Source: a virus. From it: a DNA stretch of 36,854 bases. Shown piece after piece: positions 1 to 26,947 of this stretch; position 1 is the first letter of the stretch, and each line of letters opens with the position of its first letter. Made by a program: the position numbers and the translations under genes. Under the pieces are notes generated by a model. It was not told the origin of the DNA. It saw only the letters and a list, made by a program, of their open reading frames with translations, and did not search any database. The DNA lies in IMG/VR virus record IMGVR_UViG_3300025419_000009, positions 1 to 36,854 of that record. One strand, 5' to 3'.

Positions 1-701
1 ACGTCAGCCTCTTGCGTGCCTCCGAGGCCGAGCGTGGTCAGGCTGGTGAGCGCAGCCAGCGGTGTCACGTCGGCAACCTGCGTTCTCCAGAGGTAGAGCG
101 TGGTCAGGCTGGTGAGCGCAGCCAGCGGCGTCACGTCGGCCACCTGCGTGTTCCAGAGGCCGAGCGTGGTCAGGCTGGTGAGCGCAGCCAGCGGCGTCAC
201 GTCGGCAACCTGCGTTCTCCAGAGGTAGAGCGTGGTCAGGCTGGTGAGCGCAGCCAGCGGTGTCACGTCAGCCACTTGCGTGCCTCCGAGGCCGAGCGTG
301 GTCAGGCTGGTGAGCGCAGCCAGCGGTGTCACGTCGGCAACCTGCGTTCTCCAGAGGTAGAGCGTGGTCAGGCTGGTGAGCGCAGCCAGCGGTGTCACGT
401 CAGCCACTTGCGTGCCTCCGAGGTCGAGCGTGGTCAGGCTCGTGAGCGCAGCCAGCGGTGTCACGTCAGCCACTTGCGTGCCTCCGAGGTCGAGCGTGGT
501 CAGGCTGGTGAGCGCAGCCAGCGGCGTCACGTCGGCCACCTGCGTGTTCCTGAGGTCGAGCGTGGTCAGGCTGGTGAGCGCAGCCAGCGGTGTCACGTCA
601 GCCACTTGCGTGCCTCCGAGGTCGAGCGTGGTCAGGCTGGTGAACGCAGCCAGCGGCGTCACGTCGGCAACCTGCGTGTTCGAGAGGTAGAGCGTGGTCA
701 G
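1..701 (-). repeat. 66-bp LRR-coding tandem array, copy B
   Basis: Exact 66-bp periodicity. Units differ mainly at the codons for beta-strand residues (T/Y/G/D and SN/GG/WR/RN/WN) and at a few linked synonymous sites (CAAGTGGCT against CAGGTTGCC). Units carrying GG nearly always carry the same synonymous markers, which points to exchange of whole cassettes rather than point mutation. The array is cut by the window start. Confidence 0.9.
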
Positions 702-773
702 GCTGGCTTTTTTCGCCTCGGTTAAGCCGGCAATCCATTTGCAAAGTTCCTCTTGCGTGATGATTTTCTCCAT
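1..773 (-). CDS. Leucine-rich-repeat protein, copy B (partial, runs off window)
   Basis: The reading frame starts at the ATG at 773 after an AAGGGGAAT ribosome site and stays open to base 1, so the C-terminus is missing. A 24-residue leader (MEKIITQEELCKW...) has no signal peptide or membrane segment, which suggests a cytoplasmic protein. It is followed by eleven 22-residue LRR units of the bacterial internalin/SDS22-like type with the invariant part TQVADVTPLAA. The beta-strand positions vary between units: YLSN, DLGG, DLRN, DLGG, DLGG, YLWR, GLGG, YLWR, GLWN, YLWR, GLGG. The last unit has V changed to E (TQEADV). Its leader and upstream DNA match copy A. LRR folds bind proteins or other ligands; the ligand is unknown. 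Confidence 0.85.
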   Translation of the reverse strand, partial: MEKIITQEELCKWIAGLTEAKKASLTTLYLSNTQVADVTPLAAFTSLTTLDLGGTQVADVTPLAALTSLTTLDLRNTQVADVTPLAALTSLTTLDLGGTQVADVTPLAALTSLTTLDLGGTQVADVTPLAALTSLTTLYLWRTQVADVTPLAALTSLTTLGLGGTQVADVTPLAALTSLTTLYLWRTQVADVTPLAALTSLTTLGLWNTQVADVTPLAALTSLTTLYLWRTQVADVTPLAALTSLTTLGLGGTQEAD

Positions 774-815
774 ATTCCCCTTTCGGTTCAGTTGTCAGTT
801 GTCAGTTGTTAGCGG
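774..815 (-). promoter_or_regulatory. Duplicated 5' leader of LRR copy B with CAACTGA repeats
   Basis: On the minus strand this reads three ACAACTG-type repeats, then GAACCGAAAGGGGAAT before the ATG. The stretch from about 696 to 811 is the same as that from about 1620 to 1735 upstream of and inside copy A, so leader, ribosome site and N-terminal codons were duplicated together. Copy A's stop codon (816-818) lies just upstream, so the two genes are probably co-transcribed. I see no clear -10 box. Confidence 0.6.
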
Positions 816-1697
816 TCAGCGATAAATTCTCAGGCTGGTGATCGCAGCCAGCGGCGTCACGTCGGCAACCTGCGTTCTCCAGAGGTAGAGCGTGGTCAGG
901 CTGGTGAGCGCAGCCAGCGGCGTCACGTCGGCAACCTGCGTGTTCGAGAGGCCGAGCGTGGTCAGGCTGGTGAGCGCAGCCAGCGGTGTCACGTCAGCCA
1001 CTTGCGTGCCTCCGAGGTCGAGCCTGGTCAGGCTGGTGAGCGCAGCCAGCGGTGTCACGTCGGCAACCTGCGTGTTCGAGAGGTAGAGCCTGGTCAGGCT
1101 GGTGAGCGCAGCCAGCGGTGTCACGTCAGCCACTTGCGTGCCTCCGAGGTCGAGCTTGGTCAGGCTGGTGAGCGCAGCCAGCGGCGTCACGTCGGCAACC
1201 TGCGTTCTCCAGAGGTAGAGCGTGGTCAGGCTGGTGAGCGCAGCCAGCGGCGTCACGTCGGCAACCTGCGTGTTCGAGAGGCCGAGCGTGGTCAGGCTGG
1301 TGAGCGCAGCCAGCGGTGTCACGTCAGCCACTTGCGTGCCTCCGAGGTAGAGCGTGGTCAGGCTGGTGAGCGCAGCCAGCGGCGTCACGTCGGCAACCTG
1401 CGTGTTCGAGAGGCCGAGCGTGGTCAGGCTGGTGAGCGCAGCCAGCGGTGTCACGTCGGCAACCTGCGTGTTCGAGAGGTAGAGCCTGGTCAGGCTCGTG
1501 AGCGCAGCCAGCGGCGTCACGTCGGCAACCTGCGTGTTCGAGAGGTAGAGCGTGGTCAGGCTCGTGAGCGCAGCCAGCGGTGTCACGTCAGCCACTTGCG
1601 TGCCTCCGAGGTCGAGCCTGGTCAGGCTGGCTTTTTTCGCCTCGGTTAAGCCGGCAATCCATTTGCAAAGTTCCTCTTGCGTGATGATTTTCTCCAT
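816..1697 (-). CDS. Leucine-rich-repeat protein, copy A
   Basis: This is a 293-residue protein: a 24-residue leader identical to copy B, twelve LRR units and a short tail AITSLRIYR. Beta-strand signatures in order are R-DLGG, T-YLSN, R-YLSN, T-GLSN, T-YLGG, T-GLSN, T-YLWR, K-DLGG, R-YLSN, R-DLGG, T-GLSN, T-YLWR. The scaffold residues (LTSLT.L.L..TQVADVTPLAA) are otherwise constant. In LRR structures the x positions of LxxLxLxx face the concave ligand surface, so variation is confined to the predicted binding face. There is no signal peptide, anchor or C-terminal cap. The start has a good AAGGGGAAT site. It lies downstream of the 1754-1936 gene and the promoter at 1964-1993. Function unknown. 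Confidence 0.9.
   Translation of the reverse strand: MEKIITQEELCKWIAGLTEAKKASLTRLDLGGTQVADVTPLAALTSLTTLYLSNTQVADVTPLAALTSLTRLYLSNTQVADVTPLAALTSLTTLGLSNTQVADVTPLAALTSLTTLYLGGTQVADVTPLAALTSLTTLGLSNTQVADVTPLAALTSLTTLYLWRTQVADVTPLAALTSLTKLDLGGTQVADVTPLAALTSLTRLYLSNTQVADVTPLAALTSLTRLDLGGTQVADVTPLAALTSLTTLGLSNTQVADVTPLAALTSLTTLYLWRTQVADVTPLAAITSLRIYR
843..1625 (-). repeat. 66-bp LRR-coding tandem array, copy A
   Basis: Twelve units in frame (the first lacks its first three residues). The distance between the two start codons (924 bp) is exactly 14 x 66 bp, so copies A and B are in register; that register would favour unequal crossing-over between and within them. Confidence 0.9.
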
Positions 1698-1753: not shown

Positions 1754-1936
1754 TCAGCGAGCCCCGTAGCGGAGAAGCCCTGAAATAATCTCGCAAGCCA
1801 GGTAGAGCGCGGCGCCCACCACGGCCGTCTTCAGCAGCCGGTCGCCCGTCCTGCCGAGCACGTATATCCAGTCGCCCATGCGGCTCAGTTGCTCGTCGCT
1901 GGGGTTCCAACCCATCAGTTGTGTCCAAAGTTTCAT
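1754..1936 (-). CDS. Small membrane protein, 60 aa
   Basis: MKLWTQLMGWNPSDEQ... starts at 1936 after GGAAGGCGGGAAT, a good ribosome site, and about 20 nt after the predicted transcription start of the promoter at 1964-1993. A central hydrophobic stretch (TAVVGAALYLACEIISGLL, about residues 36-54) should span the membrane once. It is the first gene of the cassette that continues into the two LRR genes. No family recognised. A longer reading from 1993 would begin inside the promoter and is less likely. Confidence 0.6.
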   Translation of the reverse strand: MKLWTQLMGWNPSDEQLSRMGDWIYVLGRTGDRLLKTAVVGAALYLACEIISGLLRYGAR

Positions 1937-1963: not shown

Positions 1964-1993
1964 AATATAGCGGGATAATCCCGTCAATGTCAA
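1964..1993 (-). promoter_or_regulatory. Promoter for the small membrane protein and LRR cassette
   Basis: TTGACA (1993-1988), an 18-nt spacer, then TATATT (1969-1964). It begins directly after the U-tract of the terminator at 1994-2034. The spacer is largely filled by a 13-bp palindrome (1971-1983), so a bound repressor would block polymerase. Confidence 0.65.
1969..1987. promoter_or_regulatory. Operator-like palindrome O1
   Basis: CGGGATAATCCCG at 1971-1983 is a perfect palindrome around one base. The wider form AGCGGGATAATCCCG is nearly repeated at 22159-22173 and, on the minus strand, at 35729-35743. The shared core is AGCGGNATAATNCC. All three sit in promoters. Confidence 0.6.
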
Positions 1994-2056: not shown

Positions 2057-2257
2057 TCAGCGGCACTGGGGCGTGCCCGGTGTGTCTGCGAGATCCGGGC
2101 GCTCGCGATCGCCGTCGCCGGCGGTCGTTTCCATTAGCGCCGCCTGAAAGTCTTCCAGCAGCGCGCTGATAAAGAACGGCCTCACTTCGTTGGGGCGCTC
2201 TCTGGCAAACCACTCCGCCGCCCAGCGCATAATCTCGCGCGTAGTCATGCGCTTCAT
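2057..2257 (-). CDS. Hypothetical protein, 66 aa
   Basis: MKRMTTREIMRWAAEWF... overlaps the stop of the XRE gene as ATGA, so it is probably translationally coupled to it. The N-terminal half is predicted helical with W and F residues (EIMRWAAEWFARE, EVRPFFISALLEDFQAALME); the C-terminus is charged and proline-containing. No family recognised. Its position suggests a partner or modulator of the regulator. The strong terminator follows directly. Confidence 0.6.
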   Translation of the reverse strand: MKRMTTREIMRWAAEWFARERPNEVRPFFISALLEDFQAALMETTAGDGDRERPDLADTPGTPQCR

Positions 2258-2856
2258 ACCTGCATCCATTCCGGCAGCGTGTACTGCCCCGCGGCCATGG
2301 CTTTTGCGGCCTGCTCCAGGATGCGCAAGTTCCACGACTCCATTCCCGGCAGCAGTTCGGCAATCTCCGCCAGGAAGGCCTCCCGCGCCAGCAGATCTTC
2401 TTTTGTCCGCTGCATCAGATCCTCAAGGCTGAACCGCTCGTCCATCAGCAGTTCGATCTCGATTCCGAGCGCCCCGGCGATCCGCCTTGTCACCTTTATG
2501 GTTGAACAACACGCACTGCATTCGATCTTGCTAATGTGGGTACGCCGTGTCTTTATGCGCTCCGCCAGTTCCCTCTGGCTCCAGCCTCGCGCCTTGCGCA
2601 GCCCACGGAGCCGGGCGGCAAAATCCCGATCGTCGAATGCCTTCGCCGCACGCGGTTCCTTATCTCCGGTTTCCGGTTCCAGCTTCAGCCTCGCATTCAA
2701 CCTGTAGGCCATCACGAATCGGCATGTCGGCCGGTTGCAAGCGCTTTTTCCCTCGGGCCAGAATTGCACCAGGCCGCACTTCGGGCAGCGCACCACCGGA
2801 CGCCTGTCCGGCGTCGATTCACGCTTGCTCGTTGCAAGCTCTGCTTTGCTTTCCAT
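2254..2856 (-). CDS. XRE-family regulator with N-terminal zinc ribbon, 200 aa
   Basis: Starts at the ATG at 2856 after GGAGGGGAATAACGTC. Residues 24-45 hold a zinc ribbon (C24, C27, C40, C45: CPKCG...CNRPTC). About residues 82-140 form a Cro/CI-type helix-turn-helix (LRGLRKARGWSQRELAERI, then RRTHISKIECSACCSTIKVTRRIAGALGI). The rest is helical. Zinc-ribbon/XRE fusions of this kind are, as I recall, common in Acidobacteriota. It is the best candidate for a lysogeny-type repressor here, but nothing in the sequence ties it to a given operator. Transcribed after the lysis cassette, with its own hairpin upstream (2896-2925). Confidence 0.85.
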   Translation of the reverse strand: MESKAELATSKRESTPDRRPVVRCPKCGLVQFWPEGKSACNRPTCRFVMAYRLNARLKLEPETGDKEPRAAKAFDDRDFAARLRGLRKARGWSQRELAERIKTRRTHISKIECSACCSTIKVTRRIAGALGIEIELLMDERFSLEDLMQRTKEDLLAREAFLAEIAELLPGMESWNLRILEQAAKAMAAGQYTLPEWMQV

Positions 2857-2895
2857 GACGTTATTCCCCTCCGCCGCGCCCTGCACAGGCCAAAG

Positions 2896-3780: not shown

Positions 3781-4158
3781 TTACTCGATGACTTGCAGGC
3801 GGTTGTCACCGTCGGCCTGCATGATGCCGCGATAGGCGTGCGTCAGCGCAATGCAGCCGTCGCTGGCGGTGTGGTTCATCGCATCGTTGTCGCCGTGGAT
3901 CATGAATCCGCCGCGCCCGTACATCTGGTTATCGGCATCCGGTATCAGACGCGTCACGATCGGACCCTTGCTGTTCGGTCCGGGGGGATCGTCGAACCAG
4001 CCGGCAATGGTGTACATGCCGGGCGGAATCGGCCCGTGGTTCGGGATCCGGCAGTCCAGGGGATTGTTGAGGCTCGGGCCGTTGCCGCTATAGCCGATGC
4101 CCAGCAGCCGGCTACCGGGCGTCAGCATCTTTCCAGTCGAAATCTGGTATGTCCACAT
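3781..4158 (-). CDS. Tlde1/YkuD-like L,D-peptidase, endolysin candidate, 125 aa
   Basis: MWTYQISTGKML... overlaps the ACP stop as TGATG. It shows the Tlde1-family signature: GYSGNG near residue 22, GPIPPGMYTI at 42-51, then FMIHGDN with H88 and ASDGCIAL with S99, G101 and C102. The HxxN...SxGC pattern is the active site of L,D-transpeptidase-fold enzymes, where Cys attacks peptidoglycan peptide cross-links. Tlde1 proteins are known as type VI effectors with L,D-carboxypeptidase activity; here the holin candidate directly downstream suggests a phage endolysin. No signal peptide, which fits holin-dependent release. Confidence 0.8.
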   Translation of the reverse strand: MWTYQISTGKMLTPGSRLLGIGYSGNGPSLNNPLDCRIPNHGPIPPGMYTIAGWFDDPPGPNSKGPIVTRLIPDADNQMYGRGGFMIHGDNDAMNHTASDGCIALTHAYRGIMQADGDNRLQVIE

Positions 4159-4442
4159 CAGCGTCTCGCCCCCGTGCGCTTCGCCAGCGCCTGCTTGGCC
4201 GCCATCTCGCTCGCCGTGTTGACCACATCCTGCACGGTGCGCCATTCCCCGGCCGCGTTGTCGGCGATCTCCTCATCGTCGAGAATGCCTTCCTCGATCT
4301 GCATGGCGATCTCCACGCGGTCCAGGCTGTCCATGCCTAGGTCTTCGGTCAGAAGCGCCTTCGGCGTCAGCTCCTCATCGTTGCAGCACAAGGTCGTTAC
4401 CAGAATCTCCTTGACCTGCTCCTCGATCGTTGCCTTTCCCAC
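4158..4442 (-). CDS. Acyl carrier protein, 94 aa
   Basis: GTG start at 4442 after GACGAGGGGAATT. It contains the ACP phosphopantetheine motif LGMDSLDRVEIAMQIEE with Ser39 as the expected attachment residue, an acidic helix III region (EEGILDDEEIADN) and TVQDVV before the last helix. It is about 15 residues longer than typical ACPs because of a basic C-terminal tail (KQALAKRTGARR). ACPs carry acyl chains for fatty-acid and related synthesis. No partner enzyme is in the window, so it must use host enzymes or act otherwise. It is coupled to the endolysin by TGATG overlap. Confidence 0.88.
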   Translation of the reverse strand: MGKATIEEQVKEILVTTLCCNDEELTPKALLTEDLGMDSLDRVEIAMQIEEGILDDEEIADNAAGEWRTVQDVVNTASEMAAKQALAKRTGARR

Positions 4443-4460
4443 AATTCCCCTCGTCTTTCC

Positions 4461-4491
4461 GATCCCTGACCCCTGACCCCTGATCCCTGTT
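4461..4491 (-). repeat. G-rich junction repeat R1
   Basis: Minus strand: AACAGGGATCAGGGGTCAGG then GGTCAGGGATC. Four G-tracts of 3-4 with 3-4 nt loops, between the basic-protein stop and the ACP ribosome site. Confidence 0.85.
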
Positions 4492-4492
4492 C

Positions 4493-4841: not shown

Positions 4842-4898
4842 TCAGAAGACTAGCACCACTCCAAGATACACCTGGCTAATCAAAATCAAAGTGCTCAT
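4842..4898 (-). CDS. Possible 18-residue hydrophobic peptide
   Basis: MSTLILISQVYLGVVLVF opens with ATGA on the stop of the RHH gene at 4895 and has AAGGAG nine bases upstream. The same AAGGAG...ATGA arrangement starts the RHH gene at 5056. The peptide is almost wholly hydrophobic and could insert in a membrane. It may be only a by-product of the duplicated 18-bp junction. Confidence 0.3.
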   Translation of the reverse strand: MSTLILISQVYLGVVLVF

Positions 4899-5056
4899 GC
4901 CTTCGGCTCCTTCCGCTCGACTGCTTCTCGGATCAGCCCCACGACCCACCTGTTGAGCGAGACATCAGCGCAGACCGCCTTGATTTGCGCCTGAGACTTC
5001 AATAGCGCGGGTAGCCTCACCTTGATCTCTTCCGCATGATCAGGGACCGTAATCAT
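4895..5056 (-). CDS. Ribbon-helix-helix protein, 53 aa
   Basis: MITVPDHAEEIKVRLPALLKS... starts at 5056, overlapping the upstream stop as ATGA, with AAGGAG at good spacing. The pattern is an RHH fold: short strand EIKVRLP (about 9-15), helix SQAQIKAVCADV, then SLNRWVVGLIREAVER as the second helix. RHH proteins dimerise and bind palindromic DNA through the strand. It is third in a coupled group (5354, 5190, 5056) started by a promoter with a palindrome. It could be a regulator or antitoxin-like protein; no toxin is recognised next to it. Confidence 0.65.
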   Translation of the reverse strand: MITVPDHAEEIKVRLPALLKSQAQIKAVCADVSLNRWVVGLIREAVERKEPKA

Positions 5057-5190
5057 GCCTTCGGCTCCTTGTCTTTCAGCGCGGCGACATACGCCTGGTA
5101 CCATTTGCGCCAAGATTCGGTGTTCGAGTATGGCCTCTGCGCCGATTCGCCCGCGCGTGTATGATAATAAACAACCCCATTCCCGCTCAT
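5053..5190 (-). CDS. Small hypothetical protein, 45 aa
   Basis: MSGNGVVYYHTRAGESAQ... runs from 5190, coupled by ATGA to the FitA-like RHH gene upstream and by ATGA to the RHH gene downstream. Aromatic-rich (YYH, SWRKWYQAYVAALKDKEPKA). Its last five residues KEPKA are identical to the last five of the following RHH protein because the junction DNA is duplicated (18 bp at 4895-4912 and 5053-5070). No family recognised. Confidence 0.5.
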   Translation of the reverse strand: MSGNGVVYYHTRAGESAQRPYSNTESWRKWYQAYVAALKDKEPKA

Positions 5191-5354
5191 TTCGTCCTCC
5201 GGCGCTCGGCTGCCCGCTTCTGGACAACGCGCCCATCCAAGATGAGGTCAAGCAGGTACTCGCTCAGGCTCCAGCCTTTTAAGTCAGCCTCAGCCTTGAG
5301 CGCCCTTTTCGTCTCAACGGGTACGCCTGTCACTTTGAGGTATGTGGTGCTCAT
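5187..5354 (-). CDS. FitA/CopG-like ribbon-helix-helix protein, 55 aa
   Basis: MSTTYLKVTGVPVETKRALK... has the FitA-type layout: strand TYLKVTGVP, helix ETKRALKAEADLKG, WSLSEYLLDLILDG as second helix, basic tail RAAERRRTK. FitA-like proteins are antitoxins or regulators that bind inverted repeats in their own promoter. The start at 5354 is preferred over 5372 because it lies 7 nt after a TACTAT -10 box, which predicts a leaderless message. A 9-bp inverted repeat overlaps start and -10, as expected for autoregulation. No VapC-like PIN toxin is adjacent. Confidence 0.75.
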   Translation of the reverse strand: MSTTYLKVTGVPVETKRALKAEADLKGWSLSEYLLDLILDGRVVQKRAAERRRTK

Positions 5355-6226: not shown

Positions 6227-7519
6227 TCATCGAATCCCCATGTTTTGCATAACGACATTCTGCATTGCGGTTCCACCGTTCGGCGTCACGAGTACCAGCG
6301 CCATTCCGTAGGCCGGAAGCGATACGCTGTAGCTCGTCATGTGCCCCAAGTCCGAGCGGGCGAACAAATCTCTCACATCCGGGTTGCTGTAGGCGCTGAG
6401 GTTCGCCGTCACGGTCTGGGTCGTGCTGGCGCGGTTCAACAGGCCCAGGGCGTAATTCCCATCCCACAGCATCTTGGTCCATACCTCACAGGTTGCGCTG
6501 CCGCAACTTGTCTGGCTGGTCCGCTTGGCAATCAGCCCCAGGGCGTCCTGATCCACCGCGATCACTTCCGGGTTCTTGTACATTGCCAGCAGCCCGCTCG
6601 ACATGGCCGTAACATCGGTTCCGAAGATCAAAGGAGACGACCACAGAGAATCCATGCCGAACTGGGTCTGCTGCTGGGTGGCCGTGAAGGTTCCCGTAAG
6701 CGGCCCGCTCCCGGTTCCGTTCATGAGCATATCGGCATTCGCCCAATAACCCACGGCGCTGTAGCCCGATAGCCCGGCGGCTATGTCGATTGCGCCGTCG
6801 AAGTTCGCCCACAGCCCGTTGATGTCCTGCTGGTCGAACCGATACTCATTCTGCCCCACCGGCTTTGCCCACAGCCACAGGTTTGCCCACGGCGAAGGAG
6901 TGGTGCCAACCTGAATAATCATCGGACGGCTGCCGGCGCGAATGTCTTGCGCCATCAACTGCCAGATTTGAGGCCCAGCCGTGCTGTAGCAGGAACTATA
7001 TCCGGCATCGACGTTGCAGCCATCGTAGTCCAAAAAGTCGGCTCCCCACGTTGCGAACTGGGTTGCATCCGCGCTCTCATGCTGATAGCTGCCGAGGTAA
7101 CCGGCGCAGGTCGTGGAATAAGGGGAAGAGTAGATGCCGAACTTTTCTCCGTCCGCGTGGACATAGGTAACGGTTGCGGCCATTCCATCTGGAAACCGGG
7201 TTGCATTCGCCACCAGGTTCCCGCCCCCGTCCCGGCTTGCAGCGGGCCAGCCATCGTCCACCACCACGAAGTTGTAGCCAGCGGCCAGCAGCCCGGTTGA
7301 CACAAGCCCGTCCGCCTGTGTTTTCACATAGGCTTCCGTGGGCGCTGATCCTTGAGCGTACCAGGTGCTCACGCCCATGCGCGGCGTTGGCAATAGGCCG
7401 TTCCATGCGAGCACGGTAGGGGAAGGAAGATTGCCGCAATTGTCGGTCGCGTCGCCGCTCAAGGGCCAAACAGCCGCGGCAAGCAACACAAGAACCCAGA
7501 TATGGAGAATGCGTTTCAT
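6227..7519 (-). CDS. Secreted GH27 alpha-galactosidase-like enzyme, 430 aa
   Basis: Starts at 7519, coupled (ATGA) to the fibre gene. Signal peptide MKRILHIWVLVLLAAAVWPL (cleavage near residue 24). GH27 signatures in order: FVVVDDGW (D88, D89), WGADFLDYDGCN with nucleophile candidate D166, YWANADML with acid/base candidate D263, and SSPLIFGTDV plus NPEVIAVDQDALG in the C-terminal part of the barrel; a beta-sandwich end follows. GH27 enzymes remove terminal alpha-galactose or alpha-N-acetylgalactosamine. The lysine two residues before the nucleophile in the human enzyme (KFDGC) is D164 here, so sugar specificity may differ. In this phage it may trim host surface or biofilm polysaccharide. Confidence 0.85.
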   Translation of the reverse strand: MKRILHIWVLVLLAAAVWPLSGDATDNCGNLPSPTVLAWNGLLPTPRMGVSTWYAQGSAPTEAYVKTQADGLVSTGLLAAGYNFVVVDDGWPAASRDGGGNLVANATRFPDGMAATVTYVHADGEKFGIYSSPYSTTCAGYLGSYQHESADATQFATWGADFLDYDGCNVDAGYSSCYSTAGPQIWQLMAQDIRAGSRPMIIQVGTTPSPWANLWLWAKPVGQNEYRFDQQDINGLWANFDGAIDIAAGLSGYSAVGYWANADMLMNGTGSGPLTGTFTATQQQTQFGMDSLWSSPLIFGTDVTAMSSGLLAMYKNPEVIAVDQDALGLIAKRTSQTSCGSATCEVWTKMLWDGNYALGLLNRASTTQTVTANLSAYSNPDVRDLFARSDLGHMTSYSVSLPAYGMALVLVTPNGGTAMQNVVMQNMGIR

Positions 7520-9846
7520 GGCGTGGTCACCGTCCAACTCATCAGAGTCGTTCCTCCACCTACGTTGGCCGGGCTTGGTCCAATAGCGTTGATCGGCTCG
7601 AAGTAGACGCCGATGTAATTGTACCCCCCGGAACTGAGATAGCCGCTCGCTGCCGTCTCTTTGTAGAGCGGGAGCCAATAACTTAAGTCACTTGAAACCC
7701 AGTAGCTGACATAGGTTCCGTCGTACTGAATCCTGTAAGCCCAGAAGTGCGCTCCATCCCGATTGATCGAAAAACTGTTGAGCGACGTATAGCTTCCGCA
7801 TGAAGCCGTCGTGCAGCCGATCACCGCGATAATCGCATTCTCCTTCACATCCACTTCCACAATAGGGCCGGTGGGCGAAGACGCAACAATCATGCCGGTG
7901 TTGAAGTAGTCGGGCGCGCCTGGGGGCACGCTCAGCAGCGCGGTAGCGGTGAAGGGGACGACGGGAGCGGCTGTAAGCTGCCCTTCGACCTGCTCCACCG
8001 AAGCGCCGGAGTCAGCCATCAGGATGCCGGTCAGTGTGTTGCCGACAGAATACGTCCCGCTATGATTCAGTGCCGTGGTCAGGCCCGTTCCGGTCAAGGT
8101 TGGCGCTGTGCTCATGGCGGGTCCAAACATCCCGCTCCCAGCCAGTACAGACGAACAAGAAACCAGCGTCCAGGTGGTGCAAGCCCCGCTGGTTACCGTC
8201 GAGCATACCAGCGTCTCTTTGATGGTTCCACCTCCCGTGGAAGTATCTCCACAGGACGCCGCATCCGATACGCTCACCTGCGATACCCCGGCAACCAGGT
8301 TATAGCCGTTCGCAACGGTAATCGCCGGAAGCCCCGATACCAGTACGGGCGTCAGATTCAACATGCTGGCCCCGCTTCCGCCGGTTGCAACCGTTCCCGT
8401 AGCAGGCGTAATGCCATGCGCCCCATCTGTCACGACGGCAACCTTGGCAACTGTGCCCATATCGGTCCCGCCGAAACCACTCCCGGTGTTGTATTGCACC
8501 GACCCAGTGATGCCTCCAGGGCTTCCGCCCCCTCCGCCTGTGGAGCCGATCTCATTCCAACTCCATGTGCTTGCCCCGTAAGGCACCATGCACATATAGG
8601 TATTGCCTGCGGACGATCTGTACTGCATCAGCGTGTTGACGGTTGCAGAGCACACGAGCGTTGGCGGATCAGGTGTGTCGGTCAGCGGAGGCAGCATTCC
8701 CACCTGGACTATCGGCCCGGTGCCATTGGTAGGAGTCGTCACCAGAGGTGAGTTCGCCACAATCTGCGCGACCCCAGTTGTGCCGCTTCCCACTCCGCCC
8801 GGCGAGCACACCGTTGCGGGCGTTCCGGTCGGCACGGTATAGACGATCTCGAAACCCACAAACGTGATGCTGACGCCCTGCGCCGAGATATATCCAGCGC
8901 CATAAGTCTGCTCAATCAGCACGCCGATGGTGGCATTGTTGAGCACCTGAGTCAGTTCCGACACAGGAACCAAAAAGCATGTACCGCAGGCGCTGGTGGT
9001 GTAGGTAACCGGTCCAAAGCTCCCGCTGCTTGGCGGAAAGCCGCTGAACCAGGGATCGCTCCCGTTTGGCACAGTCATCTGCCCGGCGGTCAGCGAACTG
9101 GTTCCATAACCGCTGCCCACTAGAATGCCGTTCAGGGCCACGATAGTGGCATTCGGCGGCAACTGCGGCATTTGAAAGCCGCCCCATCCGATCTCCGCGC
9201 CTCCTAATCCAACGGCCTGCACCATCTCTGCGCCGCCACTCAAAGTGGATGAGGCTGTGTTCCCCGATGGCAAGTAGGTAGGCGGCCCAGGGTTGGGATT
9301 CAGGGTCCACGGATTTGGGGCAGCCCAATCTGTCGTAGGCAGCGCCCACGCCACATACTGTCCGCTCGGCGGACTCATCGTCGGCACGTTCGATGGGCAG
9401 GAGAGCGCATTCTGGCCGTAAGCTGTCGGCACGTAGCCCGACAGATGGCCTCCAGAATTGGTCTGGAAAGTGACGTTGCTGTAGCCGGTGGGCGGTGCGG
9501 GCGTCGTGTCGTCGAAGTTCAACAGTGCTTGGTCGGCCAGGTCTGTGCCATTGTGCTGGAGTTCGAGGCTCGTGCCGCCTCCCGCTTCCAGTTCCCAGCC
9601 GTCAGAGGCGCAATGATAGCGGGTGTTGGGGATCACGGCCGTGTTCTGGTAAGGCTGCCCATAATTCGCGGTGCTGCAGGGCACGCTCAAACTCGTTGGC
9701 GTTCCCGCGCCGGTGATTGGCGGCCATTTGATTTGTGTTACGGCGTTGATCTGCGCCGCTGCGGTGCCCACAGCCATGCCTAGCGCCAGCGCGGCCAGCG
9801 CCGCGGCGTTACGGGTTGACAAAACAAAGCGCGTCGATGCGGTCAT
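7516..9846 (-). CDS. Fibre-like protein with signal peptide and lectin-like C-terminus, 776 aa
   Basis: Starts at 9846 after GGAGATCCGA, overlapping the previous gene by 38 nt. N-terminus TRNAAALAALALGMAVGTAAAQ is a signal peptide. The body is glycine/threonine/serine-rich beta structure; a Gly-rich linker (GGGGGSPGG) is followed by GSVQYNTGSGFGG, a motif recurring in tail-fibre proteins. The last 200 residues (ISVNPG-like VPPGAPDYFNTG... through DGAHFWAYRIQYDGTYVSYW) look like a concanavalin/LamG-type lectin fold. Probably a receptor- or polysaccharide-binding fibre; the GH27 gene directly downstream supports a sugar target. A signal peptide on a virion protein is unusual. Confidence 0.65.
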   Translation of the reverse strand: MTASTRFVLSTRNAAALAALALGMAVGTAAAQINAVTQIKWPPITGAGTPTSLSVPCSTANYGQPYQNTAVIPNTRYHCASDGWELEAGGGTSLELQHNGTDLADQALLNFDDTTPAPPTGYSNVTFQTNSGGHLSGYVPTAYGQNALSCPSNVPTMSPPSGQYVAWALPTTDWAAPNPWTLNPNPGPPTYLPSGNTASSTLSGGAEMVQAVGLGGAEIGWGGFQMPQLPPNATIVALNGILVGSGYGTSSLTAGQMTVPNGSDPWFSGFPPSSGSFGPVTYTTSACGTCFLVPVSELTQVLNNATIGVLIEQTYGAGYISAQGVSITFVGFEIVYTVPTGTPATVCSPGGVGSGTTGVAQIVANSPLVTTPTNGTGPIVQVGMLPPLTDTPDPPTLVCSATVNTLMQYRSSAGNTYMCMVPYGASTWSWNEIGSTGGGGGSPGGITGSVQYNTGSGFGGTDMGTVAKVAVVTDGAHGITPATGTVATGGSGASMLNLTPVLVSGLPAITVANGYNLVAGVSQVSVSDAASCGDTSTGGGTIKETLVCSTVTSGACTTWTLVSCSSVLAGSGMFGPAMSTAPTLTGTGLTTALNHSGTYSVGNTLTGILMADSGASVEQVEGQLTAAPVVPFTATALLSVPPGAPDYFNTGMIVASSPTGPIVEVDVKENAIIAVIGCTTASCGSYTSLNSFSINRDGAHFWAYRIQYDGTYVSYWVSSDLSYWLPLYKETAASGYLSSGGYNYIGVYFEPINAIGPSPANVGGGTTLMSWTVTTP

Positions 9847-10399
9847 TCGGATCTCCAGCTTCGGTTGCAAAGTTCAGCGTGGCCACATTGGCCGCGGTAG
9901 TGTAGCTCAGAGTAGGCAGCGCCTGCCCGTAGGGTAGCGCCACGCCGTTGTAAAACAGGGCCACAATCGCGCCCGGAGCCGTGTAAACCGTTCCCGGAAC
10001 TGCGCCCGTGCAGGGCAGATAAGCCAGCGTGCTCCCTCCCGGCAGCGGAGGAACGATCGGCGTGGCGTTGCTCAGGTCGACCGTCTCTGTGCCGCTGAAC
10101 TGATACATCCCGCACTGCACCACGTTGTCGTCGCCGTCCAGCACCATGATGCTGTAGTAGGTTCCCGCCGGCGTAATCACGTCGTTGCCCCACAGTTTGA
10201 TGCTGATTACGCCGGCCGCCGCGATCAGGTCAAACGGCCCCGGCTTGGCTATGATCGCCGTTCCCGCCACCACCGGAATCACCGGCCCGTAGCCGCACAG
10301 CGCAATGCGCAGCTTGCCCTGGTTGCCGGCGGAGCTCACCAGCGCGCCGGTAAAATCCTCCAGCGTGGCCGTCAGCGTGATTTGCGGTGTCAGCGGCAT
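9809..10399 (-). CDS. Beta-rich virion or fibre-associated protein, 196 aa
   Basis: Starts at 10399 after AGGAAAGGCAAAAGCAA. MPLTPQITLTATLEDFTGAL... has repeated short beta strands and GTYYSIMVLDGDDNVVQCGMYQFSG, a pattern like Ig- or carbohydrate-binding modules found in phage fibre regions; a C-terminal LSYTTAANVATLNFATEAGD segment continues it. No signal peptide. It sits between the SleB-like gene and the long fibre gene and is probably part of the host-contact apparatus. Confidence 0.55.
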   Translation of the reverse strand: MPLTPQITLTATLEDFTGALVSSAGNQGKLRIALCGYGPVIPVVAGTAIIAKPGPFDLIAAAGVISIKLWGNDVITPAGTYYSIMVLDGDDNVVQCGMYQFSGTETVDLSNATPIVPPLPGGSTLAYLPCTGAVPGTVYTAPGAIVALFYNGVALPYGQALPTLSYTTAANVATLNFATEAGDPNDRIDALCFVNP

Positions 10400-10414
10400 T
10401 TGCTTTTGCCTTTC

Positions 10415-10441
10415 CTGATCCCTAACCCCTGATCCCTGTTT
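10415..10441 (-). repeat. G-rich junction repeat R2
   Basis: Minus strand AACAGGGATCAGGGGTTAGG then GATCAGG. It fills the junction between the SleB-like stop and the ribosome site of the 196-residue gene. Only three full G-tracts. Confidence 0.8.
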
Positions 10442-10900: not shown

Positions 10901-11943
10901 TGCACCCTCCCCGCCTGGTTCCGCATCTTCATCAACTGCTCCAGATACCACGCCGCGGCCGGTCCGCTGCCCACCGGGAATGCCTTGTGCGCCTGGGCCT
11001 CGGTAATCGCTCCGCAGCGGATCATGGTCAGCAGCGCCGTCCGCCAGCCCAGGTACTTGGCTGTCGTCGGCACGCCGAACTCGTTGAAGTTCATCACCAT
11101 CCACTCCGTGCCCAGCGGCCATTGAAGAGTGCCCACGCGCAGCAGCTCCGGCTCCGCAAGCTGCTCCACGGCCGACATCTCCATCAGGATCCGCGTCGCC
11201 TCCTCGATCATCTTGGCGGCCAGCGTGAAGTTCCTATCCGCCTCGCTGTGCAGGTGCAGCGCCCGCAGCAGCCCCGCCTTCAAAATCACGGCCTGCGCCT
11301 CCTCGCGCAGCTCCCGCGCCTTCGCCTGCGGATACTCGGTCACCGGCTTCTGGCCCGTCCACAACGGATTGCGCATGTAGAGCCCTACGCGCCCGCTCTT
11401 CGCCTCGGGGGTGCTCTTCACCACGTTCATGCTCAGTTTGATGCGCCCCTTGCCGGTCACCTTTCCAAGCCGGTCGTAGAACTGCGGCGGCGTCAGCAGT
11501 TGCCCGTAGCGCATCTCCTCGTTTTCCTTGCCCTCCCAGCGTTGCTGGCCCTCCCACTTCTGGTCCTTCGATTGCAAGCAGGCCATCTCGTGCAGCGCCC
11601 AGGTCTTCTCCAGCGCCTCCTGCGGGTTCTTGGCCTCCTCCGCCTCCCGTGCCATCCTTTCCATCGCTTCCACCACGCGCGGGTGCCGGCTTAGCTCGTT
11701 CAGCGTCCGCGTGTCCTGGAAGTCCTGCAAGCTCGGTTTCTGGCGCAGCTCCTCTTCCGGACCGATGCGCAGCGCCAGGCCCAGGTCGTCGAGCGCGCTT
11801 TCGTCCGTAGGGTCTGGAATCCACCGCCCGCCGTCGATCTCTTCGGCTGCCTTGCGGATCTCGGCGTCCGCCGGGTGCGCCTTGGGCGCGCTCTGATCCT
11901 TGGGCTTGATAATCACATTCGGCATCTGGATCGTGTCGCTCAC
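10897..11943 (-). CDS. Hypothetical protein, 348 aa
   Basis: GTG start at 11943 overlapping the upstream stop as GTGA; stop coupled to the SleB-like gene. The N-terminal half is charged and helical with a coiled-coil stretch (VVEAMERMAREAEEAKNPQE). The middle is LMNVVKST-like and basic; the C-terminal 100 residues are W- and L-rich (TLQWPLGTEWMVMNF, YLGWRTALLTMI). No signal peptide or membrane segment. No family recognised; probably a virion or assembly protein given its place between internal virion proteins and the hydrolase. Confidence 0.6.
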   Translation of the reverse strand: MSDTIQMPNVIIKPKDQSAPKAHPADAEIRKAAEEIDGGRWIPDPTDESALDDLGLALRIGPEEELRQKPSLQDFQDTRTLNELSRHPRVVEAMERMAREAEEAKNPQEALEKTWALHEMACLQSKDQKWEGQQRWEGKENEEMRYGQLLTPPQFYDRLGKVTGKGRIKLSMNVVKSTPEAKSGRVGLYMRNPLWTGQKPVTEYPQAKARELREEAQAVILKAGLLRALHLHSEADRNFTLAAKMIEEATRILMEMSAVEQLAEPELLRVGTLQWPLGTEWMVMNFNEFGVPTTAKYLGWRTALLTMIRCGAITEAQAHKAFPVGSGPAAAWYLEQLMKMRNQAGRVQ

Positions 11944-12353
11944 GCCTGCCTCACAATCCGGGGATCGACGCCTGTTTCCGCCACCGTCAGCGCCAGCCCT
12001 TGCTCGGCGAAGTATTCCACCTGCCGCCGCGTCTCGTCGTCCCTGACCCCTGATCCCTGATCCCTGATCCCTGTTTCTTCCATTTCCCGCCTGCTGATCA
12101 ACTCCCCCAGCGCGTCCGCCAGGTCTTCCGACACCTTGCGCACATTCTCATTCGCCGCTCGCTGAGAACAGTTCTTTACGATGTAGCGCATCTCCTCCAG
12201 CCGTTGCGTCGTCACCATTTCCCGCCTGCTAATCAACTCCCCCAGCGCGTCCGCCAGGTCTTCCGACACCTTGCGCACATTCTCATTCGCCGCTCGCTGA
12301 GAACAGTTCTTTACGATGTAGCGCATCTCCTCCAGCCGTTGCGTCGTCACCAT
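11940..12353 (-). CDS. Helical protein with duplicated 45-residue module, 137 aa
   Basis: Starts at 12353 (TGATG overlap with the previous gene). Two identical 45-residue modules (VTTQRLEEMRYIVKNCSQRA, then ANENVRKVSEDLADALGELI) lie head to tail, each beginning with Met; a third Met then leads into a repeat-coded linker (EETGIRDQGSGVRDDE) and an unrelated tail ending DPRIVRQA. The modules are amphipathic helices. The preceding 73-residue gene carries a diverged third copy (RKSWADVAKGLGELIELRRR). Internal ATGs could give shorter forms. Function unknown. Confidence 0.6.
   Translation of the reverse strand: MVTTQRLEEMRYIVKNCSQRAANENVRKVSEDLADALGELISRREMVTTQRLEEMRYIVKNCSQRAANENVRKVSEDLADALGELISRREMEETGIRDQGSGVRDDETRRQVEYFAEQGLALTVAETGVDPRIVRQA
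12041..12074 (-). repeat. G-rich repeat R3, inside a coding sequence
   Basis: Minus strand reads GGGATCA three times then GGGGTCAGGG: five G-tracts. It is translated in frame as GIRDQGSGVRD in the 137-residue protein. Confidence 0.9.
12084..12353 (-). repeat. 135-bp in-frame tandem duplication
   Basis: Units 12219-12353 and 12084-12218 differ at one base (12231 a, 12096 g), which is synonymous (ATT/ATC). The near identity points to a recent duplication or ongoing homogenisation. Confidence 0.95.
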
Positions 12354-12574
12354 CAGCTCACCGTGCCTTCCAGCGGAATGCTCACTGTCCGCCTGCGCAG
12401 CTCGATCAGTTCGCCCAAGCCCTTGGCCACATCCGCCCAGCTTTTCCGCATCCACTCGGTTTCTTTGTTGCGCCTCGACCGCTGCACAGCCAAATCATGC
12501 AGACCCTTCAATTGCTCCATGGTCAGCGGTTTGTGACCCCTGACCCCTGTTCCCTGTTCCCTGTTCCCTGTCAT
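12353..12574 (-). CDS. Small helical protein, diverged module paralogue, 73 aa
   Basis: Starts at 12574, ATGA-coupled to the 812-residue gene. The first 12 residues (TGNREQGTGVRG) are coded by a G-rich junction repeat, so the original start may have been the Met at LTMEQLKGL. Residues 19-64 align by eye to the 45-residue module of the next protein (EWMRKSWADVAKGLGELIEL against ENVRKVSEDLADALGELISR). Function unknown. Confidence 0.55.
   Translation of the reverse strand: MTGNREQGTGVRGHKPLTMEQLKGLHDLAVQRSRRNKETEWMRKSWADVAKGLGELIELRRRTVSIPLEGTVS
12534..12570 (-). repeat. G-rich repeat R4
   Basis: Minus strand CAGGGAACAGGGAACAGGGA then ACAGGGGTCAGGGGTCA: five G-tracts. It codes the N-terminus of the 73-residue protein, so the repeat supplies codons right after the start. 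Confidence 0.85.
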
Positions 12575-15009: not shown

Positions 15010-17039
15010 TGCGGGGCGATCCCATAGTCAACGGTGCCGGTTGCGTTCGTCCAGTGCATTTTCCCATCGGGGCCAGGCGCTTTGTATGTTGCTCCCGCCG
15101 GTGGCGCAGCCGGCTGCGCGATCGCGTCCTTCTGCACAAATTCCTTGGCTCCCAGCCCTTCCAGAATCTTCGTACTCTCGGGCGAGAGCATCTGAAAGTC
15201 TCGCGGCCTGCCCATGCCGGTTTCGTACTGGTGGCTCAGAGCGTCATAGCGCCCATTCATCAGCGTCAGCGCCTCCTGGATGCCGGCCTTGATCTGGTCG
15301 GGCGTCTGCGCCGTGCTCATGGTTTCCTTCCAGCCCTGAATCTCCTGGTCGGTTCCGGCGGTGCGCTTGAAGATAGCGCTTAGTTCGTCGGCCACGGCGT
15401 TGACATCTTTTTTGTACTGCCCCGGCGCCGTGGCTCCAAACCATGGCCCAACGGTATTTTTGAAGGCATTCGCTGCTTGGAAATTCGTGTTTCCCAGCGC
15501 CGCGCCTGTTTTGTTGAGCTGGTCGAGATGCTGAATTGCAGTGTTCAGGCTGCGGATGTTTGTGGCTGCCTCGCCGCTGGTGAAGTCCTGCAACAGCTTG
15601 TGGCGCGTGCCGTACTGCTTCTCGTCGTAACTGGGATCGATCTGCTGCGCCAATCCAATCGCCGTCTCGCGGTCAACCTGGCCGCTCTTGGCAAATTTGC
15701 GCTGCGGAAAGGTCGCAGGATCGGTTCGGTAATCGAGCAAGCCTTTCACCGCCGCCTGAATCGGAGCGGGATATTGTTCCAGTCCTGCGGTTCCAGTCGC
15801 TCCTGGCGTCGGCGTAGCAGTTTGGGCTCGTTTTGCTTCCGCCTCGGCACGCGCTTTTTCCGCTTCCGCATAATTTTTGGCTGCTTCCGCTGGCGCAGCC
15901 TCGGCACGCGCTGTTGCCTCGGCACGCGCTTTTCCCGCTTCCGCATAATTTTTGGCTGCTTCCGCTGGCGCAGCCTTGGCCCGCGCTGTTGCCTCCGCGG
16001 TCTGCGCCACTTTCAGGCCGGTTTCCACCTGGTCTGTCTTGTACTTCAGCGCCGCATTTCCGGCCGCCGTGTTGTAATCGTCGATCTCCCCCTGGGTGAT
16101 CGGGCCGGATGCTTTGTGTTCGAGATATTGCCCGGTGGTGTTGTCGAAGGTATGGAAAATCGCTCCATCCGGCAGCACGGTGGCCCGGTAGCCGGGCGTC
16201 GTCTTGTAAACCTTGAATCCGGCCACCTGGCCATTCTCGTAGTTGGGAACAAACTCCAGCGCGTGATTTTTTACCAAGTCTTCCATCAGTTGCGGATTTT
16301 TAGCCATCAGGTGGCTGATGTCCCCGACGTGTGCGGTAGTTCCCAGCAGAATTCCGCCATTCTCCTTGAGCCGGTCTTCCTGCTTGTCGGCGAACTGCTC
16401 ATCCTCCTGGCTGGCCTTCACCTTCAACCGCGCTGCGGTGTAGGCGTGCTCCGCCATCTGCATCCGCAGCAATTGGTTGTTCGCATTGTCCAGCGTCTGC
16501 TGCCGCGCCTGTTCGGTCATCTCTTTCTGCTGCTTTTGCTGCTGTTGCTGATCCTGCTGGCCGGCCTCCACACCGGCCAGCGCCGCCTTCCCCATGTTGC
16601 CCGCGCCCTTGCCAGCCGCCAGCCCCGCCGCCGCCCCGTGGATAGCTTCTCCGGCAATGCGCAGCCACTGCTCTCCATGGGTCAAGCTCACCTGCTTGAC
16701 ATAGCTGTTTCCGTCCTGGTCCTTGCCGATCTCCGGCCGCGTCTTCCCCGTCAGCGCGTCTGCGATCGAGTCCATCACGCCCAGAATGCCGCCGCGCTTC
16801 TGCGGCGTAATCACCGTCGGTTGCGCGGGCGCGGGGGCTGCGGGCGGCGCGCCAGCGGCCGCTCCTGGCGTCGCTGGGGTTGCGGCGGCCTTCTGCGCGC
16901 TTGCCGTCGGCTGCGCGGCGCCCTGCGCGGCTTGGCTCCAGTCTCCTCCGCCTGCTGCGGGCGCCGGCTGCTGGCTCGCTATCTGCGCGCTCTTGTCTCC
17001 GCTGCCCGTCTGGTCCGGTATTGCTTGTGCCTCAGCCAT
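15006..17039 (-). CDS. Internal virion protein, 677 aa
   Basis: Starts at 17039 after AAGAGGAAAATC; an upstream extension to 17222 overlaps another gene and is rejected. The N-terminal 60 residues are A/P/Q-rich and disordered; an amphipathic part (DSIADALTGKTRPEIG) and a Q-rich coiled coil (QQDQQQQQKQQKEMTEQARQQ) follow. Residues about 351-403 hold a 25-residue tandem repeat (APAEAAKNYAEA.KARAEA). The C-terminal third is globular (TNIRSLNTAIQHLDQLNK). Coupled to the 812-residue protein. Best read as an ejected core protein. Confidence 0.65.
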   Translation of the reverse strand: MAEAQAIPDQTGSGDKSAQIASQQPAPAAGGGDWSQAAQGAAQPTASAQKAAATPATPGAAAGAPPAAPAPAQPTVITPQKRGGILGVMDSIADALTGKTRPEIGKDQDGNSYVKQVSLTHGEQWLRIAGEAIHGAAAGLAAGKGAGNMGKAALAGVEAGQQDQQQQQKQQKEMTEQARQQTLDNANNQLLRMQMAEHAYTAARLKVKASQEDEQFADKQEDRLKENGGILLGTTAHVGDISHLMAKNPQLMEDLVKNHALEFVPNYENGQVAGFKVYKTTPGYRATVLPDGAIFHTFDNTTGQYLEHKASGPITQGEIDDYNTAAGNAALKYKTDQVETGLKVAQTAEATARAKAAPAEAAKNYAEAGKARAEATARAEAAPAEAAKNYAEAEKARAEAEAKRAQTATPTPGATGTAGLEQYPAPIQAAVKGLLDYRTDPATFPQRKFAKSGQVDRETAIGLAQQIDPSYDEKQYGTRHKLLQDFTSGEAATNIRSLNTAIQHLDQLNKTGAALGNTNFQAANAFKNTVGPWFGATAPGQYKKDVNAVADELSAIFKRTAGTDQEIQGWKETMSTAQTPDQIKAGIQEALTLMNGRYDALSHQYETGMGRPRDFQMLSPESTKILEGLGAKEFVQKDAIAQPAAPPAGATYKAPGPDGKMHWTNATGTVDYGIAPQ
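15835..15985 (-). repeat. 75-bp tandem repeat in the 677-residue gene
   Basis: Two copies spaced exactly 75 bp (TAATTTTTGG cores at 15871 and 15946) code 25-residue alanine/glutamate/lysine-rich helix repeats. The frame is kept. The A+T-rich core stands out from the neighbouring DNA. Confidence 0.8.
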
Positions 17040-18768: not shown

Positions 18769-18805
18769 CTAACCCCTAACCCCTAAGCCCTAACCCCTGA
18801 TCCCT
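18769..18805 (-). repeat. G-rich junction repeat R7
   Basis: Minus strand GGGATCAGGGGTTAGGGCTT then AGGGGTTAGGGGTTAG: five G-tracts, telomere-like TTAGGGG spacing. It fills the gap between the 974-residue stop and the 111-residue start. Confidence 0.85.
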
Positions 18806-21747: not shown

Positions 21748-21780
21748 AACAGGGGTTAGGGATTAGGGGTTAGGGGTCAG
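21748..21780 (+). repeat. G-rich repeat R8, opposite orientation
   Basis: Plus strand GGGGTTAGGGATTAGGGGTT then AGGGG: four G-tracts. Its C-rich strand gives the last codons (ELTPNP) and the stop of the 131-residue gene. Confidence 0.85.
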
Positions 21781-22158
21781 TTCCGGCTCGCCGCCGCTGT
21801 TGCTTGGATTCAGCAGCGCCGTCAGCCGCGCCTGCAACACGATCTGCAAGATGTTGGCCTTGTCCGAGCCTCCGAGTCCAATCACCGCATCGCGCAGTTC
21901 CATGTCGCTCACCGCGGCGATCGCCTCGTCCACCTGCTCCACGGGAATCTCCAAGCTGATCGGGAAAACCAGTTGGGGCGCATCCTCCGCTTCGGTCTCG
22001 TCCGCCGGCTCCGGCGCCTCTACATTCTCCGCTTCGGCGCTTGCGGGTTTCAGTTTTTGGGCTTTGTACCAACTGATCTTCAAAGCCTTGGCTACGGCGC
22101 TGACACTTTTGCCTTCCTCAAACAGTTGGGCAGCTTCGGTTTCGAGTGCATTCTCCAT
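21763..22158 (-). CDS. Helix-turn-helix-like acidic protein, 131 aa
   Basis: MENALETEAAQLFEEGKSVS... starts at 22158, six bases after the TATTAT of promoter P2, so its message should be leaderless. The first 40 residues (AAQLFEEGKSVSAVAKALKI, then SWYKAQKLK) look like a homeodomain-type helix-turn-helix. An acidic linker (EAENVEAPEPADETEAEDA) follows, then a helical C-terminal part (EQVDEAIAAVSDMELRDAVIG). It may be an internal regulator of late genes or a small terminase-like protein; neither is established. It breaks an otherwise structural gene row. Confidence 0.6.
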   Translation of the reverse strand: MENALETEAAQLFEEGKSVSAVAKALKISWYKAQKLKPASAEAENVEAPEPADETEAEDAPQLVFPISLEIPVEQVDEAIAAVSDMELRDAVIGLGGSDKANILQIVLQARLTALLNPSNSGGEPELTPNP

Positions 22159-22160
22159 AG

Positions 22161-22194
22161 CGGGATAATACCGTCACTCTCTCCACTATGTCAA
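22161..22194 (-). promoter_or_regulatory. Leaderless promoter P2 with operator O2
   Basis: TTGACA (22194-22189), 18-nt spacer, TATTAT (22170-22165), CCCGCT, then ATG at 22158. CGGGATAATACCG (22161-22173) overlaps the -10 and matches O1 at 12 of 13 bases. The string TATTATCCCGCTATGGAG matches the plus-strand promoter at 35732 at 17 of 18 bases, although the genes differ. Confidence 0.7.
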
Positions 22195-23960: not shown

Positions 23961-23994
23961 CCTGATCTCTGATCTCTGAACACTGATCCCTGTT
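23961..23994 (-). repeat. G-rich repeat R9, degenerate
   Basis: Minus strand AACAGGGATCAGTGTTCAGA then GATCAGAGATCAG. It keeps the GATCAG period but has lost most G-tracts. It sits in the 186-bp gap between the 312- and 323-residue genes, where I see no gene. Confidence 0.7.
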
Positions 23995-24095
23995 CTTGCG
24001 GCTCAGGGCCAGTTTGCCGGGGGAATAGTCGGCGCCCTGGCCCTGCCGCTCTGCCGCGCTTACCAGGAGGCATGGCGCGCCGGCATCCCGTTGGC

Positions 24096-25995: not shown

Positions 25996-26030
25996 CCCCT
26001 GATCCCTGATCTCTGACCCCTGATCTCTGT
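25996..26030 (-). repeat. G-rich junction repeat R10
   Basis: Minus strand CAGAGATCAGGGGTCAGAGA then TCAGGGATCAGGGGG. Its 3' G-run abuts the start of the signal-peptide fibre gene, so the repeat doubles as ribosome-site-like sequence. Confidence 0.8.
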
Positions 26031-26031
26031 T

Positions 26032-26640
26032 TTACGCCGCGTACCTGTCACAAGGCCGGCGCCGCAGTACCGGCGCTCCGGTCTCCGTGTTTGTCGTGGT
26101 GATGGTTACGCCGCATTGCATCTCCTGGGCGGCCTCTTCGCTCAGCTTGTCTTTGGCCAGGTCATACAGCCGGTTGAACTCAGCCAGATCCGCATGATAC
26201 TTCGCCACGCGGGCATCGCGCTGGGCCGCTGTCTCGCCCTCGCGAATCGCGGTCGCCTGGTCGGCGGGATGCGGGCTCCAGCACTCGCCGCGGCAGATAA
26301 TGCACTTGATCAGCTTGGTAAAGCCGTCCGGCATGTTGAAGACGCTCAGCGCGCTGTCGCCCTTGCCCTTGTAGGGATTCTTCGGCGATCCTCCCTGGCG
26401 GTGGTTGCATTCGGCCATCAAAGCCTTGCGGTTCGCCCTGTCGGTCGCCAATTGCGCCTGCCGCTGCCGGTTCTTCCGGCTGCGGTCCGCCTTCTCGTTC
26501 TTCAGGCGCTGGTTACGTTCCTTGGCCTCTTCCAGGTCAAGCTGCTTGGTCTCCAGATCAATCCGCTTGATCTCCAGATCGAGCTTCGCCAGATCGCTCT
26601 CCGCCTTTGCTTCCGCCGTGCTTTTGGCTGTCTCTGCCAT
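26032..26640 (-). CDS. Coiled-coil protein with cysteine knuckle, 202 aa
   Basis: Starts at 26640 after GGGAGAGCATC. Residues 1-75 form a highly charged coiled coil (LEIKRIDLETKQLDLEEAKE). A KCIICRGEC knuckle lies near residue 115, followed by helical DARVAKYHADLAEFNRLYDL. Cysteines near the end (MQCGVTI, RRPCDRY) could complete a metal site. Position directly after the capsid and zinc-ribbon genes suggests a head or assembly protein. No family recognised. Confidence 0.55.
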   Translation of the reverse strand: MAETAKSTAEAKAESDLAKLDLEIKRIDLETKQLDLEEAKERNQRLKNEKADRSRKNRQRQAQLATDRANRKALMAECNHRQGGSPKNPYKGKGDSALSVFNMPDGFTKLIKCIICRGECWSPHPADQATAIREGETAAQRDARVAKYHADLAEFNRLYDLAKDKLSEEAAQEMQCGVTITTTNTETGAPVLRRRPCDRYAA

Positions 26641-26912: not shown

Positions 26913-26944
26913 CCTAACCCCTGATCCCTAACCCCTAATCCCTG
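26913..26944 (-). repeat. G-rich junction repeat R11
   Basis: Minus strand CAGGGATTAGGGGTTAGGGA then TCAGGGGTTAGG: four G-tracts. It sits between the capsid stop and the hairpin at 26886-26909. Confidence 0.85.
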
Positions 26945-26947
26945 CGG

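Follow-up and report, generated by a model that had tools for sequence, protein, structure and literature searches.

The window analysed here is the complete IMG/VR contig IMGVR_UViG_3300025419_000009 (36,854 bases), one end of which encodes two tandem leucine-rich repeat (LRR) genes, A and B; both lie downstream of a 60-aa ORF and behind a sigma-70-like promoter. The features of the locus, and those elsewhere in the contig to which it is compared, are as follows:

3..773, minus strand: LRR gene B, sister copy of gene A, with a cap identical to that of A and 11 modules, 10 of them complete
774..815, minus strand: leader of gene B, with TGACAAC heptamers and the ribosome-binding site AAAGGGG
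816..1697, minus strand: LRR gene A, 293 aa, with a helical N-terminal cap (residues 1-24) and 12 modules of 22 aa (66 bp)
1754..1936, minus strand: small ORF of 60 aa that opens the putative LRR transcription unit, judged by eye to have one membrane-spanning stretch
1964..1993, minus strand: sigma-70-like promoter, TTGACA-18-TATATT (11/12)
2254..2886, minus strand: HTH (repressor-like) gene upstream of the LRR unit
22157..22176, minus strand: second copy of the promoter motif, TGACGGTATTATCCCGCTAT, upstream of the core gene 21763-22158
31801-33537, minus strand: terminase large subunit (phrog_38 match)

Gene A starts with an ATG behind a strong ribosome-binding site (AAAGGGG), and its N-terminus (MEKIITQEELCKWIAGLTEAKKASLT) is polar and helical; the modules are followed by a short final strand, and the protein stops past the last repeat with no C-terminal domain. 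Gene B is incomplete, running off the contig end, and has a module order unlike that of gene A; leader and cap are common to the two genes as a 116-bp exact repeat (695-810 / 1619-1734). The initial annotation had described gene A, which is a real ORF, and had omitted the sister gene at 3-773 of the minus strand. Long antisense frames were ruled out as coding, since the scaffold codons change only synonymously in the minus-strand frame. Each LRR leader (774-815 and 1698-1745) contains three to four copies of the TGACAAC heptamer just 5' of the ribosome-binding site.

Pfam LRR_4, a class defined by a 22-residue LxxLxLxx(N/T)x(I/V)xDxxPL repeat scoring above the curated cut-off, matches both genes far above that cut-off (203.5 bits against 27, E 1.5e-61, for gene A); the unit scaffold of the phage arrays is TQVADVTPLAALTSLT. 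Only the cap and the repeats were detected as domains, and for this reason the protein most likely acts by binding. The nucleotide-binding and effector domains that characterize NLR-like immune receptors are absent from gene A, as is the cell-wall or membrane anchor expected of an internalin; the LRR A protein has no PADLOC defence-family match. The initial annotation considered the protein cytoplasmic, and no signal peptide is evident by inspection, which suggests action inside the infected cell. The 60-aa ORF at 1754..1936 has no family match.

The phage and its tie to the LRR unit

The contig has the gene order of a tailed phage: the minus strand carries the terminase, a portal homologue, a gene with a weak major head protein match (phrog_1357) and the genes of the tail region, and the portal protein is homologous to that of Tunturiibacter phage Tunturi_3 (28% over 82%). 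As Tunturi_3 is a podovirus with an Acidobacteriota host (PMC11924767), the host of the present soil phage is probably an acidobacterium. No phage integrase (PF00589) was found in the contig, and lysogeny is therefore not supported. Terminase relatives occur in nine IMG/VR records, one of which is identical to the window in all proteins compared, from about 33.9 to 12.2 kb; the gene at 9809-10399 has relatives in 13 records, giving 20 distinct records together with the terminase set. None of these 20 related records, several of them fragments and with poor right-arm synteny, has an LRR_4 match, and on this basis the LRR unit is interpreted as an accessory gain of the phage.

The promoter holds a 20-bp motif, TGACGGGATTATCCCGCTAT (1967-1986), which contains the perfect palindrome CGGGAT-T-ATCCCG. 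The copy TGACGGTATTATCCCGCTAT is the only other near match in the window, where none is expected by chance, and the site at 22157..22176 is also present in the sister records L003 and L022; since the motif is common to a core phage gene, it ties the LRR unit to the phage. Host contamination is considered unlikely for the same reason, although the locus does lie at the contig end. Given the perfectly palindromic core of the LRR copy and the HTH gene just upstream, it is a reasonable guess that the palindrome is a putative repressor site and that the HTH gene (2254..2886) is its candidate regulator.

Several other genes and repeats of the contig deserve mention. A phage-borne alpha-galactosidase is encoded at 6227-7678 (Melibiase_2, E 2.7e-36, with Melibiase_C) and is possibly a polysaccharide depolymerase; an acyl-carrier-protein-like gene at 4158-4442 (PP-binding, E 3.5e-7) overlaps a Tlde1/YkuD L,D-transpeptidase-fold gene at 3781-4245; the gene at 4895-5251 has a weak HicB-like antitoxin match (Pfam HicB, E 0.0005, just under the cut-off), and no toxin partner was identified for it. 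Tracts of a 7-bp unit (CAGGGAT/CAGGGGT, minus strand) are dispersed over the contig, about twelve in all, many of them immediately 5' of start codons, and comparable tracts are present in the sister phages L003, L019 and L022. They include:

4459-4492, 10408-10441, 12043-12076, 12533-12566 and 18776-18809: 7-bp-unit tracts
23962-23995, 25999-26032, 26914-26947 and 29384-29417: further 7-bp-unit tracts

Position-specific variation and predicted structure

The variation was counted in the 22 complete modules of genes A and B, of which 16 are distinct at the DNA level. The amino-acid changes fall at repeat positions 3, 5, 7 and 8, in agreement with the claim of the initial annotation that the units vary only on the predicted concave face; the sole exception concerns position 20, where I or F replaces L in two terminal modules, the last one in A and the first one in B. 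The residues found in the 22 modules are:

Position 3: T in 17, R in 4, K in 1
Position 5: Y in 10, D in 7, G in 5
Position 7: G in 8, S in 7, W in 6, R in 1
Position 8: N in 9, G in 8, R in 5

The residues listed earlier (T/R/K, Y/G/D, and SN/GG/WR) are all present; that list lacked the further pairs RN and WN, and position 3 is mostly T and invariant in gene B. Two modules never differ at more than four of 22 residues unless one of the two terminal ones is involved, which puts the lowest pairwise identity at about 77-82%, with most pairs above it; the arrays span about 264 and 235 aa. Positions 10, 11, 12, 15 and 21 show synonymous variation only. Across the 18 scaffold codons pN/pS is 0.03, while the four concave codons have a pN of 0.40 against a pS of 0.14 for the whole unit, so the confinement of variation proposed earlier is borne out within the contig. 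Nine of the 10 nonsynonymous variable sites lie in four of the 22 codons (binomial P 1.8e-6), and the concave codons hold nine nonsynonymous and no purely synonymous sites, compared to one and five elsewhere (Fisher P 0.002); both tests assume independent sites and are somewhat overstated, since the units share ancestry. Strong amino-acid conservation of the unit outside the variable positions is supported by these values; the variation on the predicted binding surface fits diversifying selection as judged by a pN/pS comparison with few independent alleles (3, 3 and 5).

The main alternative to selection for diversity is an ordinary young tandem-repeat expansion, in which homogenised units leave four positions free while the others are constrained or too young to differ, with neither diversity favoured nor a repertoire for recognition. 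Tandem duplications that keep the frame are frequent in this phage, with 135-bp copies, 99% identical, at 12080-12353 inside the gene 11940-12455, and a 75-bp copy at 15841-15995; the variant alleles are few, and relaxed selection on new repeats is general (PMC5120217). However, positions 10, 12, 15 and 21 lie outside the leucine core and still vary synonymously but never in amino acid, the concave codons carry the nine-to-zero excess given above, and the same four positions recur in an unrelated Mollicutes gene; the expansion reading is considered unlikely. One sister contig, G001, stops within the gene carrying the 135-bp repeat.

An AlphaFold2 model of the gene A protein, with B used as alignment, has a pLDDT of 91 and a pTM of 0.88, with regular strands of the form x3-L-x5-L-x7 across the units. 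As the leucines point into the core, positions 3, 5 and 7 are predicted to lie on the concave strand with position 8 directly after it, a placement deduced from the LRR fold and not from coordinates; the modelling proposed as a check in the initial annotation thus places the variable positions where it had expected them. The top solved structures by fold are the LRR domain of C. tepidum Roco and internalin A, and the top PDB match by sequence is internalin A; among 50 viral models listed by fold, every named case is from a eukaryotic virus.

The internalin-like relatives are surface proteins, which raises the alternative that the LRR proteins are virion or cell-surface binders, either tail-associated and receptor-binding or on the host surface, rather than cytoplasmic ones. 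Virion proteins of phages require no signal peptide, and one of the genes in the structural region has the promoter motif in front of it too; against this, the LRR genes are placed past the putative lysis and regulatory genes and have a promoter of their own, and the proteins consist of cap and LRRs with no tail-attachment domain and no credible tail-family match. A virion or surface role is considered improbable, and the cytoplasmic binder remains the preferred reading.

Recombination among units and reliability of the array

The variable residues are linked to synonymous markers. The pair GG at positions 7-8 always occurs with CAA-GTG-GCT, SN and WR with CAG-GTT-GCC, and RN and WN with CAG-GTG-GCC; this rule, first noted in the initial annotation as markers travelling with variant residues, holds in 22 of 22 modules. 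The linkage is short-range: Cramer's V is 1.00 at 9 bp and about 0.6-0.7 at 6 to 24 bp, with blocks from position 5 to 15, and no significant linkage was found at or beyond about 30 bp, whether inside units or over unit borders; position 3 is linked to no other marker. Since linkage is complete at 9 bp and gone past about 30 bp, the pattern fits an exchange of blocks shorter than one unit. The cassette exchange originally inferred is consistent with this decay and with the wholly different order of the two arrays: in register, module type agrees between A and B at 0 of 11 positions, at any shift it agrees at two at most, and two types are common to both. Because cap and leader are exactly alike despite the unlike arrays, either the arrays have diverged more quickly than the heads, or gene conversion has acted on the heads. 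Gene A also contains a 176-bp exact internal repeat with copies five units apart, which is interpreted as a mark of unequal crossing-over or slippage.

It was also proposed that this diversity arises without a reverse transcriptase; no RVT_1 match was found in the contig, which may be incomplete, and a diversity-generating retroelement was rejected for the contig on these grounds.

The observations on module order depend on the assembly, and arrays of high internal conservation in fungi are not trustworthy from Illumina assemblies (PMC12222747). This caution probably applies to the phage array, because the contig, which comes from a metagenome, begins inside the array and one exact repeat, that of 176 bp, exceeds a 127-base k-mer; an array collapsed or made chimeric from several strains would render the module order and the difference between A and B unreal. 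However, a single exact pair exceeds 118 bp, and its path has unique flanks; on this reading of the repeat analysis the module order is largely fixed, as a single exact repeat exceeds k-mer-scale length, and the copy number of one loop may differ. The position-specific variation is moreover independent of module order, and an artefact is considered highly improbable as the source of the pattern.

In IMG/VR, further alleles were sought by the complete protein sequence, by an alignment of the units and by two DNA patterns, and no relative of the phage locus was confirmed; 17 stretches matched a pattern and none passed tblastn, where a low-complexity filter on the 88-residue query may have hidden some. 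Bacterial genome contigs, searched with cap patterns only, gave one weak Bacteroidetes LRR, and the matches in the phage collection are all unannotated 'Listeria phage' records.

Related systems and proposed function

Between-strain change is seen in an independent LRR family, carried by plasmids of Mollicutes bacterium LVI (CP136991, CP136955 and CP136957). The internalin-like gene of CP136991 has 13 complete units with the scaffold NSISDITPLSGLTN and varies in amino acid only at positions 3, 5, 7 and 8; a related gene on plasmids of strains LVI A0075 and A0078, which are identical to each other, has a different residue palette at mainly the same positions and 9 versus 14 units (by a looser count). 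Repeat number and palette thus shift between strains with the variation mainly at the same four positions, which is the kind of outcome that the initial annotation had looked for, though in a family other than that of the phage gene. The Mollicutes proteins share with the phage a fixed scaffold and the variable positions, but they are secreted and membrane-anchored by sequence, have extra domains and unrelated codons, and are encoded on plasmids rather than by a phage. With this family known, the mechanism becomes plausible in the phage as well, and the pattern is less novel; the modular repertoire proposed in the initial annotation stands as a pattern, but not as one special to the phage. In CP136991.1 (1-38442) a 14-unit and a 9-unit LRR gene occur three times at a spacing of about 12.8 kb, which may reflect a multimer or an assembly duplication.

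The closest precedent is considered to be the high-internal-conservation repeats of fungal NLRs, which are defined by a repeat identity above 85% across 100 aa or more and include WD40, ANK and TPR types, as in het-d and het-e of the Podospora HNWD family (PMC4986451, PMC12222747). In the WD40 type, diversifying selection acts on four positions of each repeat, which belong to the interaction surface, and the polymorphisms of TPR and ANK repeats are on the concave face; no LRR type was found among these fungal repeats (PMC4986451). The likeness extends to near-identical units, few variable surface positions, probable shuffling and exchange within the family, and problems with short reads, although the fungal repeats are sensor domains of multi-domain immune receptors while the phage LRRs stand alone. 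The LRR_4 proteins InlA and C. tepidum Roco resemble the phage protein in their 22-residue LRR, helical N-cap and concave protein-binding face, but the latter has no signal peptide, anchor, Ig-like or GTPase domain, and its repeats are far more alike than those of InlA. Phage diversity-generating retroelements likewise target diversity to the binding face of a phage protein; they differ in that no reverse transcriptase was found in the contig and that the variation here extends across many tandem units and is linked to synonymous markers. In the variable lymphocyte receptors of lampreys, LRR modules are assembled into varied binding faces; the phage repeats, by contrast, are germline.

Taken with a probability of about 0.55, the preferred reading is that the locus is an accessory tailed-phage module of recombination-diversified, most likely cytoplasmic LRR binders whose target varies. 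The module would consist of a promoter of phage type, the gene for the putative 60-aa membrane protein and two or more stand-alone LRR solenoid genes of the internalin/Roco (LRR_4) type in tandem, each LRR product being a scaffold predicted to bind a protein by its concave sheet. Unequal recombination and gene conversion among the 66-bp units, within and between genes, would change array composition by exchange tracts of tens of bases while the arrays remain nearly identical; selection would fix the scaffold and may favour diversity at positions 3, 5, 7 and 8. From the selection pattern and the accessory position we infer a target that is variable too; a host factor, for example a defence protein, is the likeliest candidate, with a rival-phage protein as the alternative. 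The intracellular host or rival-phage target named in the initial annotation is a conjecture. The stronger proposition, that the phage keeps a recombination-driven LRR repertoire, varied at four concave positions with no reverse transcriptase, to track a fast-changing intracellular partner, for instance among the defence proteins of the host or the proteins of rival phages, is considered quite unlikely.

The sharing of four variable positions by a phage and an unrelated plasmid family suggests a general signature that can be searched for, namely LRR units that are almost the same and differ at positions 3, 5, 7 and 8 alone, and the LRR proteins are concrete baits for finding host or rival targets. 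If the preferred reading is true, the fungal high-internal-conservation route to recognition diversity would include LRR proteins and phages as well, and would offer an alternative to diversity-generating retroelements.
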